A stretch of DNA of 64,000 bases from Bacteroidota bacterium (GTDB lineage Bacteria > Bacteroidota > JABWAT01), in the NCBI GenBank assembly GCA_023151185.1, contig JAKLJL010000003.1, forward strand, positions 186,001 through 250,000, written 5' to 3'. Position numbers and translations under genes: made by a program. The notes beneath the pieces are model-generated. The model was not told the DNA's origin. It made no database searches and saw only the letters and a program-made list of their open reading frames with translations. Shown one piece after another: positions 3,282 through 7,660 of the stretch (positions within the stretch are counted from its first letter, which is position 1; each line of letters begins with the position of its first letter).

Positions 3282-3525
3282 TTATTTCACCAGTAAAATA
3301 CGTTGAGTCACTTGCCTGCCCTGCCAGATTCCTTTCACCAGATACATCCCGGATGCCTGTCCGTCAAGAGTCAGCCCAACTGAATTCAAACCGGCTTCTG
3401 CTGTTACCGAGACTGAGTTGACTTTCTGCCCGAGAACAGAATACACCTCAAAGGTTACCGTTCCTGCGCCGGGAAGGGTGAAGGGAATCCGGGTTTCCGG
3501 GTTAAACGGATTCGGATAGGCGGGC
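3282..3525 (-). repeat. Near-identical 244-bp 3' cassette, copy 1
   Basis: This segment encodes the T9SS sorting domain. It aligns without gaps to 5489-5732 with five base differences, only one of which changes an amino acid (Tyr for Cys before PNPFNP). The gene bodies on the other side diverge strongly. Confidence 0.9.
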
Positions 3526-5471
3526 TTGAGGGAAAAGGAGTGTGGTGAGGCTTCAGTTGGATCTTCAACACCATCCGGACCAGATTTGTAAGAATACAGG
3601 GTGAAGCCCCTGTCACCATGGGTGACGATAACTTTGTTGCCATCTGCTGAAATCCCGGTATTTTTTAAAGCTGACTCAAAATAACCGGCAAACACAGGAG
3701 ATTCCGGATTTGATATATTGTAAACTGCAATTGGTAAATAGGGGATGTTTTCAAAGGCATTTTTGGTTGTCTGAATCAATAAATAGTGATCAATAAATGC
3801 ACTTGAGCCCACCAGGGCACCGGGATTTATTTCGGAGATTTTCTGAAATTGGTTTTCTGCTGTTTCCCGGTAAAGGGTTACTTTTTTTTCACTGTTCAAT
3901 GCGAAAATATTTTTTTGTTTGATAAGCGAACCTGGCTTGTCCTCTTTTCCAAAAGAACCCTCTGATGAACCTGAAACCCAACCCGTCCATGGATAAGTAT
4001 ACCTTAAAATACCAGAGTCCGGACAGGCAAGGAAAATCCGGTTGCTATCCACATAAAAATCACTGATAACAGCTTGGGTAATAAAGGAACCGATATCTGA
4101 AGGATTTTTCGGGTTTTTGACATTGATCAGATGGACAAATGAATGACCATCAGTACTCCATTTATCCTTGCTCAGCAAAATAACCAAAATGGTATCCTGC
4201 ACCCTAAGTTTGGAGATCGTTTCAAAATCCGCTGAAGTTTGATGCCAGTTTTCAAAAACCGGATTATTTGATTTGGAAATCACCCCAAAGTTATCAGAAT
4301 ACGCAGCAAATAAATAGTCACCCTGGCCATCCAAAGCGTTAAGGCTTTCACCTATTACGTCGCTTGTACCTAAATAGGCACTTCTTTTAAGAACAGCATT
4401 ACCTGATTGATCTACAGCAAAATATTTATATCCGCTATACTCAGGAATATAAATTTCGTTTCCCTTTATAACGGGTTTTGTCATATTTCCCGCCTCGCGG
4501 GTGCTGAACTTCCATTTAAAAACGGAATCCGACACTTTAGAATAATAGGTAAGCCCAAAACTTCCATCTGTTGAAATGAGATTGTTATTACCCATCCAAA
4601 AACTGCTTCCAACGAAATAGGGGTTTTGAGAATTAATCTCAATTGGGGTTTTTATATCACTGATATCAACTAAAATGAAACCATACCCACCCCATCCTAA
4701 TTCAAAATAACCCAGAATCTGACCTTTTATTTTTATAAATTCTCCACCCTGCCCCAAATCCAGAGAATCGGTTAATTCGAACTTACTGCTTTCTGAATTA
4801 GAATAAACAAGCATTTTGTTTTTATACTCTGAGGATCCCACGAAAAGATGGTTGTCCTTTCCGGCCAAACAAAAAGAATAAGCTTTTTGCTTTAACTCAA
4901 TTGAATCTGACACAACAGGTTGCAGCGGATTTTGGAGGCCGGCAATATAAATGGTTTTGCCGATCAAAAAACATAGCTGCCCGCCTGCAAGGGCAAAGCT
5001 ATTCACGTAACCCGGAACCCGGGTCGAGTATTTTGGATGGGTTTCATCCGAAATATCATAAACTGACAGAATTCCGTTGATATTCAAAAAGGCAACTGAT
5101 CCCAAAACACGGATGTCCTGCTCATGCCCGGCTGAAACCGGCGTTTTGGAAATTAACATGGGCAGGTATCTGTTCGAAATATTGATGATAAAAAATGAAC
5201 TTCCCATCAAATAAAGGCGGTCACCAGAAAGATAGGAGCTTGTTACACTTTCGCCCAAATCCAATTTTGCAATCTCAAGCAAGGTGTCCTTAACTGAAAT
5301 ATCACCAGTCACCAGTAACGATCCGCAGGTAAAAAATACTGCATCCTCATTTCCCTCAATGGTTGTGACTGGGCCATAATTCCATCTGAAAACCTGTTCA
5401 AAACCGGGAACCTGAGCCTGGATCAGGCTGCCTGAGACCATCAACATGAAAACCAGAAAAGTACGCTTCAT
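3282..5471 (-). CDS. Secreted beta-propeller-like protein with T9SS sorting domain (paralog 1)
   Basis: The product (about 729 residues) begins with a signal peptide (MKRTFLVFMLM...IQAQ). The ATG at 5471 is chosen over one at 5486 because AGAGGA sits six bases upstream of it. The central part has many short repeats of LVIVD/beta-propeller character (patterns such as VYDISDETHP and LVDISDIKTP). The last 80 residues are a type IX secretion C-terminal sorting domain (YPNPFNPET, then SVLGQKV, ending RILLVK). The protein is expected to cross the outer membrane and be displayed or released. It is paralogous to the next gene upstream and lies two bases after it. The body is more AT-rich than the paralog, while the 3' end is almost identical. 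Function of the propeller is unknown. Confidence 0.8.
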   Translation of the reverse strand: MKRTFLVFMLMVSGSLIQAQVPGFEQVFRWNYGPVTTIEGNEDAVFFTCGSLLVTGDISVKDTLLEIAKLDLGESVTSSYLSGDRLYLMGSSFFIINISNRYLPMLISKTPVSAGHEQDIRVLGSVAFLNINGILSVYDISDETHPKYSTRVPGYVNSFALAGGQLCFLIGKTIYIAGLQNPLQPVVSDSIELKQKAYSFCLAGKDNHLFVGSSEYKNKMLVYSNSESSKFELTDSLDLGQGGEFIKIKGQILGYFELGWGGYGFILVDISDIKTPIEINSQNPYFVGSSFWMGNNNLISTDGSFGLTYYSKVSDSVFKWKFSTREAGNMTKPVIKGNEIYIPEYSGYKYFAVDQSGNAVLKRSAYLGTSDVIGESLNALDGQGDYLFAAYSDNFGVISKSNNPVFENWHQTSADFETISKLRVQDTILVILLSKDKWSTDGHSFVHLINVKNPKNPSDIGSFITQAVISDFYVDSNRIFLACPDSGILRYTYPWTGWVSGSSEGSFGKEDKPGSLIKQKNIFALNSEKKVTLYRETAENQFQKISEINPGALVGSSAFIDHYLLIQTTKNAFENIPYLPIAVYNISNPESPVFAGYFESALKNTGISADGNKVIVTHGDRGFTLYSYKSGPDGVEDPTEASPHSFSLKPAYPNPFNPETRIPFTLPGAGTVTFEVYSVLGQKVNSVSVTAEAGLNSVGLTLDGQASGMYLVKGIWQGRQVTQRILLVK

Positions 5472-5488
5472 AATATCCTCTAACATTA

Positions 5489-5732
5489 TTATTTCACCAG
5501 TAAAATGCGTTGAGTCACTTGTCTGCCCTGCCAGATTCCTTTCACCAGATACATCCCGGATGCCTGTCCGTCAAGAGTCAGCCCAACTGAATTCAAACCG
5601 GCTTCTGCTGTCACCGAGACTGAGTTGACTTTCTGCCCGAGAACAGAATACACCTCAAAGGTTACCGTTCCTGCGCCGGGAAGGGTGAAGGGAATCCGGG
5701 TTTCCGGGTTAAACGGATTTGGACAGGCGGGC
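5489..5732 (-). repeat. Near-identical 244-bp 3' cassette, copy 2
   Basis: Second copy of the sorting-domain cassette; see 3282-3525. The high nucleotide identity against strongly diverged upstream parts points to gene conversion or cassette exchange. Confidence 0.9.
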
Positions 5733-7660
5733 AGAAGAGAAAATTGGGCTGGATGCCGGGTGTCTGTTTCATCCACATCTGCAGGTTCTGTGATTTTATC
5801 ATAAACAGTAAATCCGCTATACCCATGAGTTACCACCAGGCGGGTTTCATCAGCAGCTATCCCGGTTACAGGAATTGAAAAGTCTGCCCGGGTTTCCAGT
5901 TCCGGTTTTTCCGGATTCTTAAATGTGTATGCCCAGACTGATTTGGAATACAGAAACTGTTCTGCCGGATCATACTGTGTCAGGAAAAGGCGATGTCCGG
6001 AAAACGTAATATCCGCAAGAGGATGGTCCAGGCTGAAGCCGGAAAGTTTATTAAATACTCCCGGGCTGCTTTCTTTCCAAAGTGAAATACCAGATTCACC
6101 GTAAATAAAAATCAGGTCCTCATAGAAGTAAATAGCTTCGGGTTTCTCTTCTTCAGCAAATGGCTCAGACAGAACAGGGTCAGCATTTGGTGAAAAGGGA
6201 AACAGAGTAAACCGGATGCCTTCACTGGGCAGGACCATAAAAAGGCGGTTCCCCGAAAATGCTATTTTCGAAACCGGAGTGGTTGATTGGAATCCTGCAG
6301 TTTCATCCCGGACAGGCAATTTTCCTTCGCTAAAAGGATACTGATACATCAGACCCATTCCCGGAATCCGGTCCAGTCTGACCAGATATGAATCCTGAAT
6401 AGCCAGGTCAGCTACCATTTGAAAGCCACCAGCGGGAGCAAGTGTGCCCAATACGGAACAAGACGGGTTCATTTTCCGAACCGACACAGATTCTGACCGG
6501 ATAAGAAACAAAAGGGAGTCAGATACGACAGCCCGGGAGATTCCTTCTCCGGTTACGTCTGATAAACCTTCGTCGTAGAAGAAACGGAGACCGGGTTTTT
6601 TCCCTTTTTCCAGTTGAAATATCTGAAACCCCTGCAGTTCAGGAATAATCAGTAGATTTTTTTTCAACTCTGGATTTACCATAAAATTTCCACCGTAATA
6701 AACAGCTTTACGCACTGGTTCCAGATTTGGGGGGCCATAATCAACCAACCCGCTGGTTGCATTACAGACCAGCAGGTGGTTGGGTGCCCGGTAAAAATCA
6801 CCGGAGGACTGTATGCAGGCAGCCGGATGCAGAAAAACCGGCCGGGCGGGATCTGAGAAATCGACCTGCTGCAGAGTCAACCCAACCCTCTGTGCATTGA
6901 AAATTCCCAGGATGCTGCCACATTTTCTGATTTTTTCTGAACTGCCCCGATAAGGAAATGATTGGGTAAGCTGGAACCTCCCATCAGAATCCGGGCTGTA
7001 CATCCGGATTTCCCTACCGGGAAGAACAGCAATGAGGTGGTGTCCCAAATCGGTGAGCAGTGCCCCTGACTGGAGTGAATCCAGCAGGATTTTGTCTGTG
7101 ATCACCGGATGGACTGGATTCTCAAGGGAAGCAACCAGAATTTCGCTTTTCCGGCTTAAGAAGAGCTTGCCTGAAACCGTTGCCATGTCATTGAATCCTG
7201 ATTTCAGGGAGTCAGTCAGAATTGGATTCAGTTCGTCTGAAAGGTTCAGGACATCAATTTCAGACTCCGAAAGGAGGTAGGCTGCAGTACCGGAAATAAC
7301 GACTTTCGGTCGATAACCGCGCCTGATTTTTGTTTTTGACAGGAGAACCGGATTTTCCGGGTAGGTTACATCGAGGATGAAAAGGTGCTCACCCAGTAGA
7401 TAAAGTCTGTTTTGCAGATAAACAGAATATCCGGTTTCTTCTCCCAGATCCAGACTTCCCAATTCAAGAAGGGTATCTTTTAATGAAATATCAGCAGAAA
7501 TCAGGATCCGGCCGGACGTAAAGAAAACGGTATCACCAGTGCCTGAGATGGAATTTACCTGCCCGTAGCGCCATTCAAAGGCAGATTTAAAAGCGGTAAT
7601 CGGTCCCCGGGCGTGGGCAGAGAAAAAAACGGGAATCAGGAGAATCAGAAGAGATTTCAC
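5489..7660 (-). CDS. Secreted beta-propeller-like protein with T9SS sorting domain (paralog 2)
   Basis: The GTG at 7660 gives a 723-residue protein with a clean signal peptide (VKSLLILLIPVFFSAHA); a TTG at 7726 would add 22 residues and is less likely. The body resembles the downstream paralog in its opening (WRYG...VFFTSG, DISLKDTLLEL) and in repeated short propeller-like units, and the C-terminal 80 residues are the same type IX sorting domain (PNPFNPET...RILLVK). Export through the T9SS is inferred. It follows the clpC terminator and is probably transcribed with paralog 1. Catalytic residues are not recognisable; the protein may be an adhesin or surface-binding protein. Confidence 0.78.
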   Translation of the reverse strand: MKSLLILLIPVFFSAHARGPITAFKSAFEWRYGQVNSISGTGDTVFFTSGRILISADISLKDTLLELGSLDLGEETGYSVYLQNRLYLLGEHLFILDVTYPENPVLLSKTKIRRGYRPKVVISGTAAYLLSESEIDVLNLSDELNPILTDSLKSGFNDMATVSGKLFLSRKSEILVASLENPVHPVITDKILLDSLQSGALLTDLGHHLIAVLPGREIRMYSPDSDGRFQLTQSFPYRGSSEKIRKCGSILGIFNAQRVGLTLQQVDFSDPARPVFLHPAACIQSSGDFYRAPNHLLVCNATSGLVDYGPPNLEPVRKAVYYGGNFMVNPELKKNLLIIPELQGFQIFQLEKGKKPGLRFFYDEGLSDVTGEGISRAVVSDSLLFLIRSESVSVRKMNPSCSVLGTLAPAGGFQMVADLAIQDSYLVRLDRIPGMGLMYQYPFSEGKLPVRDETAGFQSTTPVSKIAFSGNRLFMVLPSEGIRFTLFPFSPNADPVLSEPFAEEEKPEAIYFYEDLIFIYGESGISLWKESSPGVFNKLSGFSLDHPLADITFSGHRLFLTQYDPAEQFLYSKSVWAYTFKNPEKPELETRADFSIPVTGIAADETRLVVTHGYSGFTVYDKITEPADVDETDTRHPAQFSLLPACPNPFNPETRIPFTLPGAGTVTFEVYSVLGQKVNSVSVTAEAGLNSVGLTLDGQASGMYLVKGIWQGRQVTQRILLVK

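Follow-up and report, generated by a model that had tools for sequence, protein, structure and literature searches.

Concerted evolution by gene conversion leaves neighbouring gene copies sharing a recent tract over old, diverged sequence, and the ends of such a tract mark the limits of homology. Bacteroidota that possess the type IX secretion system (T9SS) can hold more than 100 cargo genes with one family of export tag. In Porphyromonas gingivalis, T9SS surface proteins are described as having undergone domain rearrangement and allelic exchange, with gene conversion and horizontal exchange invoked (PMC5266723, available text). The present analysis concerns a tandem pair of T9SS cargo genes, designated A and B, on the minus strand of a 64,000-nt stretch (the window; contig JAKLJL010000003.1, positions 186,001 to 250,000) of a Bacteroidota bacterium, assembly GCA_023151185.1, hereafter G000. 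What sets A and B apart from other tandem paralogues under concerted evolution is that homogenisation is restricted to their C-terminal export domain, while the bodies continue to diverge. The likeness to P. gingivalis lies in the diversification of T9SS cargo by modular recombination; however, in the available text the parts shuffled there are adhesin and catalytic domains of virulence factors, and the sorting domain figures as a conserved part, not as a converted tract (PMC5266723). In A and B, by contrast, it is the sorting domain that forms the putative converted tract, and the genus has approximately 130-150 such tags per genome. TANFOR polymorphic toxins are comparable as large modular Bacteroidetes proteins treated in a T9SS-related paper (PMC7073777, available text), whereas A and B have no toxin family recognised among their Pfam and NCBIfam profile matches, and in them the body varies while the C-terminus is shared. 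A literature search, outside which most subscription journals lie, for T9SS proteins subject to conversion, recombination, shuffling or concerted evolution found PMC5266723 alone to be relevant; in the available text of PMC7323717 the term 'concerted evolution' occurs once, as the title of a reference.

We consider, with a probability of roughly 0.78, that A and B are old tandem paralogues and that a recent gene conversion put the tag DNA of A over that of B. The parts of the pair concerned, in window numbering, are:

3282..5471, minus strand: gene A, open reading frame of 729 aa, with a signal peptide (read by eye), two predicted beta-propellers, a linker and a T9SS type A sorting domain
5489..7660, minus strand: gene B, open reading frame, upstream tandem paralogue of A whose body has diverged; putative GTG start codon at 7660
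3282-3525 (A) and 5489-5732 (B), minus strand: shared blocks, the last 244 nt, at the low-coordinate ends of both genes
3282..3512, minus strand: tag core of A, last 231 nt, with three differences from B, all silent
5489..5719, minus strand: tag core of B, last 231 nt, which probably received the converted sequence, as judged from the orthologues of A
3492..3515 (A) and 5699-5722 (B), minus strand: stretch encoding PNPFNPET at the 5' edge of the tag, inside which the A/B tract starts

Both proteins have hydrophobic N-termini, as read by eye from the translations, and both match the T9SS type A sorting domain family TIGR04183 above its cut-off of 23 bits (39.7 for A and 34.3 for B); the cut-off of 27 for PF18962 was reached by A (27.7), while B stayed under it (22.5). 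Judging from these matches, A and B are probably exported to the surface through the same T9SS, with the protein function of the tag unchanged.

The initial annotation had reported that the last 244 bases of the two genes differ at five positions, most of them silent, and this is what is found: the differences lie at positions 236, 232, 124, 34 and 19 counted from the stop, four being silent and one a Tyr/Cys change; uninterrupted identity extends over 107 nt at most. The two sequences match as far as the stop codon and differ after it. Over 77 codons (NG86 counting, which takes in one more silent site than the 231-nt core) there are four synonymous and no replacement differences, giving a proportion of synonymous differences (pS) of 0.066 and a synonymous divergence (dS) of 0.07. 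The bodies have diverged, as was also claimed, to about 27% protein identity over the body alignment, with 9-24 identical residues per 50-column block and nucleotide identities of 0.32-0.56 in blocks of 50 codons. The body of the downstream gene A is indeed the more AT-rich (GC of 0.403 against 0.470 in B; 0.520 and 0.525 in the tags). Near-identity is thus confined to the tag, and the equal similarity of whole genes that would have told against conversion is not what the pair displays.

The likeness of the two tags is not due to chance, because among the tags of this genome the median nucleotide identity of a pair is 0.46 and the 99.5% quantile 0.60. There are 129 matches to TIGR04183 in G000; 128 tags, forming 8128 pairs, were compared, the inner of two tags in the same frame (C3:55404) being left out. 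That frame, of 808 aa (C3:53300-56300), carries two consecutive sorting-domain matches, C3:55404 and C3:55716.

When the tag of A was searched in the whole of G000, as the initial annotation had proposed, 30 matches were obtained, namely A, B and 28 short ones of 23-99 nt, nearly all of them on the PNPFNP-coding stretch. The cassette is therefore confined to the pair in this genome, and no near copy was found in the two congeners (sister species) G001 and G002 or in G003; the best match in each congener is the orthologous gene's own tag (69-71%). These searches bear on the second mechanism that had been suggested, a mobile C-terminal cassette spreading among cargo genes, which we regard as very improbable. 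It would agree with the differing histories of tag and body in several gene pairs, some of them on different contigs, but for the A/B cassette it is largely refuted, the sole near copy being the neighbour's. Moreover, in other pairs the shared tracts continue into the body for 99-537 nt, which shows that the cassette has no fixed edge. What stands of that suggestion is an exchange of tags between varied bodies, by homologous recombination.

The age of the pair was assessed from a body search of 60 genomes, which included G000 and both congeners. Orthologues of A were found in G001 (55% identical; JAFLBE010000120.1) and in G002 (41%; JAIUNL010000004.1), where the gene also adjoins clpC; beyond the congeners there were weak matches in two more genomes, and a profile search of the genome contigs with the body alignment gave two loci, both the known congener ones. 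No B-like second copy is present in G001 or G002. The B protein has 28-30% identity with A and with each of the two A orthologues, so that the split between A and B is, by these distances, probably older than the split of the species. Synonymous sites of the A and B bodies are saturated, with pS of 0.76-0.80 in the two propellers, and the tract is thus far younger than its flanks. The tag of A stands at dS 0.9-1.1 from the tags of its orthologues, and the orthologous tags show pS of 0.53-0.60 against both A and B. Of 2000 codon bootstrap replicates, all placed A closest to B when the tag was used, none did so for the N-terminal part or for either propeller, and 0.25% did so for the linker. The out-groups hence show that the duplication predates the tract, the body of A being nearer to the orthologues and its tag nearer to B, as is required of gene conversion. 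A recent duplication is not what produced the pair, even though its cassette is confined to these two genes.

The same figures bear on purifying selection as the cause of the likeness. The tag is presumably functional and its replacement sites are conserved, as selection on the protein would have it, yet the synonymous sites of A and B are nearly identical too, far closer than those of orthologous tags and against a genome-wide median tag identity of only 0.46, which refutes this explanation and leaves it a negligible probability.

As for direction, comparison of 270 tags showed that, once the pair itself is set aside, both A and B have their best tag match in the A orthologue of G002, followed by that of G001. 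Since the closest outside tags of both genes belong to orthologues of A, the surviving tag would be A's, and B was probably overwritten. According to this reading, A and B would be old tandem paralogues, each secreted with a T9SS type A sorting domain behind its body; after the split from the sister species, homologous recombination between the neighbours would have overwritten the sorting-domain DNA of B with that of A, along a tract running from the PNPFNP-coding stretch to the stop codon, the limits of clear homology between the loci. Further tandem cargo genes of G000 and its relatives, together with a small number of dispersed ones, would have been subject to the same process. The sequence identity, the contrast in age and the recurrence of the pattern are shown by the data, and from them are inferred recombination of the RecA type as the agent, the direction from A to B and secretion itself.

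A different history is proposed by a rival in which A was duplicated in tandem recently and one body, from the clpC side up to the tag, then gave way to a diverged allele, taken up from another strain by transformation and integrated through a double crossover, so that the tag is all that remains of the duplicate. The body of A has in fact a history of replacement in the congeners. The DNA of G001 and G002 is 88-94% alike over most other stretches compared (83% in one short stretch); in the orthologue of A, the ends with their flanks and the tag are about 86-92% alike, and the inside is only about 48% alike, with near-saturated synonymous sites. Such a contrast appears to ask for replacement of the body by another allele, and not merely for fast amino-acid change. 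The two orthologues of 3282-5471 (L063, 823-3018, and L064, 1234-3396, both on the minus strand) have as bodies barely alignable alleles, in species approximately 90% alike. This replacement with kept ends at the very same locus speaks for the rival. However, it would take a coincidence for a duplication to end exactly at the stop codon, whereas for a conversion tract this is where homology runs out; nor are the N-terminal parts of A and B near-identical. We therefore hold recent duplication to be unlikely, and prefer conversion between old paralogues. A pair that is truly a recent duplicate, in contrast to A and B, is found in G000 at C22:1100-6900, where two tandem cargo genes have 99% identity across 2328 nt and 97.8% in the tag.

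The mosaic within the body of A can be placed on its predicted structure through two further features:

4473..5418, minus strand: propeller 1 part of A common with the G001 orthologue, with a DNA identity of 79% as far as codon 333
3579..4496, minus strand: propeller 2 of A, model residues 326-631; whichever two of the three congeners are compared, protein identity is about 30% and synonymous sites are near saturation

The body of A is thus itself a mosaic between species, with its break close to the predicted joint of the two propellers. Breaks appear to fall near domain joints, between propellers 1 and 2 in A and between linker and tag in A and B, although, with so few breaks, this is an observation and not a test.

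Mismatch between tags and bodies recurs in this genus. Thirteen of the 8128 tag pairs of G000 are at least 85% identical, and they include 6 of the 38 same-strand pairs within 6 kb as against 7 of the 8076 others (Fisher p 1.2e-11; opposite-strand pairs within 6 kb were placed in neither group, and the contig-end copy C26:286 was kept). Six gene pairs of G000 have tags at least 85% alike and bodies matching over less than 30% of their length; in the comparison of bodies with tags, as in the codon count given below, C3:55404 (the inner tag) and C26:286 were left out. The mirror case is provided by C21:308841 and C21:312742, whose bodies are shared (96% alike over 1144 nt) and whose tags are not, the switch from like to unlike lying just past the PNPFNP stretch. 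On different contigs, C4:82012 and C11:34910 are 0.91 alike in the tag and 0.54 in the body, and have more than 100 identical nt within tags that are otherwise less alike.

For the congeners, with 149 and 150 matches to TIGR04183, 69 and 74 tag genes from part of each genome were analysed. A tandem cluster of nine genes common to G001 and G002 has tags 0.83-0.93 alike over bodies 0.49-0.76 alike, and C11:34910 of G000 resembles one G002 gene of this cluster more in the body (0.80) than in the tag (0.63). Three gene pairs between G001 and G002 have kept the body and not the tag. In two pairs of cargo genes from these species (L192/L231 and L193/L232), bodies are 88% alike over 5.6 kb and 78% alike over 1.9 kb, respectively, the tags are unlike, and similarity is lost from about 300 nt ahead of the tag. 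Among 97 tag genes sampled from eight other genomes, there were two same-genome pairs with tags 85% alike (in G034 and G003). Tags and bodies hence part company in both directions, which supports exchange by homologous recombination and not by a mobile element. The appearance of the same pattern in separately assembled relatives also answers the suspicion of an assembly artefact in a metagenome-type assembly: repeats can be mis-resolved when assembled from short reads, and the ends of contig C26 are identical, but the A and B copies differ at five places, no exact run exceeds 107 nt, and the pair lies deep inside a 361-kb contig, which makes such an artefact highly improbable.

Several points weigh against conversion between old paralogues. 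The event is deduced from a comparison between species, and with no B orthologue in G001 or G002 the age of B rests on its distances to A and to the A orthologues. Of the 13 near-identical tag pairs, 7 are not close neighbours, some of these being whole-gene copies and one a contig-end repeat. The pS of the tag is less than half that of the body in 13 of 73 alignable tandem pairs, but also in 7 of 40 orthologue pairs; tags can therefore look young for other reasons, such as exchange from species to species or replaced bodies, and this ratio was rejected as a test for tandem conversion as not discriminating. In three of those seven orthologue pairs the tags of the two species are almost the same (pS 0.00-0.09), suggesting that exchange also crosses species boundaries. 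Taken with the old duplication, the recent shared tag and the further cases in G000 and its sister species, the gene conversion put forward by the initial annotation is nevertheless well supported, and A and B are a clean example of a known process in a new setting, an export tag.

The weight of the case lies in where conversion acts, the process being known already, and in the wider pattern of exchange around A and B. If tags are overwritten and bodies swapped, trees of the tags do not give the history of the cargo, and the tag itself can help to diversify what is displayed on the cell surface.

The edge of the tag shows a peculiar choice of codons. At the first PNP of the tags, CCG AAT CCG is over-used in G000, G001 and G002 compared with the bodies of the same genes: CCG accounts for 0.65 and 0.79 of codons at the two prolines in G000 (0.46 in bodies), for 0.57 and 0.64 in G001 (0.28) and for 0.69 and 0.72 in G002 (0.30), with z from 11 to 22 after tags at least 80% alike had been thinned to 116, 61 and 61, respectively. 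Body prolines preceding asparagine do not have this bias (CCG 0.23-0.34), and conserved glycine and tyrosine codons of the G000 tags have little or none (z -0.7 to 3.6), while bias is also seen at some other tag positions, among them a serine of G000 (z 13.0) and a tyrosine of G001 (z 9.9). The bias was not clear in other families, in small samples of 5 to 29 tags from each of five genomes, which leave a phylum-wide translational signal unsupported; three further genomes yielded too few tags for this count. The bias may reflect a seed for exchange at the level of DNA, common ancestry that exchange has kept uniform, or a signal in translation. We offer only tentatively the idea that in this genus the start of the sorting domain serves as a recombination handle, where PNPFNP-coding DNA would be kept alike in many tens of cargo genes beyond the need of the protein, so that bodies and tags are rejoined there, and propellers would be swapped at their joints. 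If this somewhat doubtful idea were true, export tags would be the constant ends of a shuffling surface proteome.

The AF2 model of A, of moderate confidence only and with four sequences as input, consists of two beta-propellers, a linker around residues 630-659 and then the tag (mean pLDDT 68.3, pTM 0.51). Its top Foldseek match is PorZ of P. gingivalis (5m11; E 1.1e-16, 12% aligned identity), although many other double-propeller proteins score nearly as well; among the 50 matches listed by VIA-align were WD-type propellers and not PorZ, an absence that proves nothing. PorZ, described as having two beta-propellers and a T9SS C-terminal domain, is alike to A in both respects, the propellers of A being predicted (PMC5121618, available text). 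A and B nevertheless stand outside its propeller family, since PF21544, the family of the PorZ N-terminal propeller, had no match in A or B at E up to 1. The only component of the T9SS machinery sought in G000 was PorZ, and PF21544 matched at C3:47614-48087, in a 752-aa frame, with E 7.5e-18; this gene is likely to be the PorZ of G000. An identity of A or B with PorZ, despite the top fold match, is ruled out by the lack of a PF21544 match together with the separate gene.

The A/B pair is located downstream of clpC, and its arrangement includes:

5471, minus strand: ATG start of gene A, read from the sequence
5472..5488, minus strand: spacer of 17 nt between the stop of B and the start of A, containing AGAGGA, read from the sequence

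From the 17-nt spacing, A and B probably form one operon. The GTG proposed as the start of B has a GCAGGTGG stretch upstream and agrees with the end coordinate of 7660 given by the initial annotation. A sequence between clpC and B reads like a terminator, presumably that of clpC.

The two ends of contig C26 (286-498 and 152736-152948) lie in an identical stretch of at least 375 nt, so that the contig is possibly circular or terminated by a repeat. Sorting domains that are orphan or truncated were seen in G000 at C11:315961-316200, C11:590058-590249 and C25:171216-171404, in short frames behind intact cargo genes, and could be by-products of recombination between tandem tags; the first of them is 94% alike to a tag 1.7 kb upstream.

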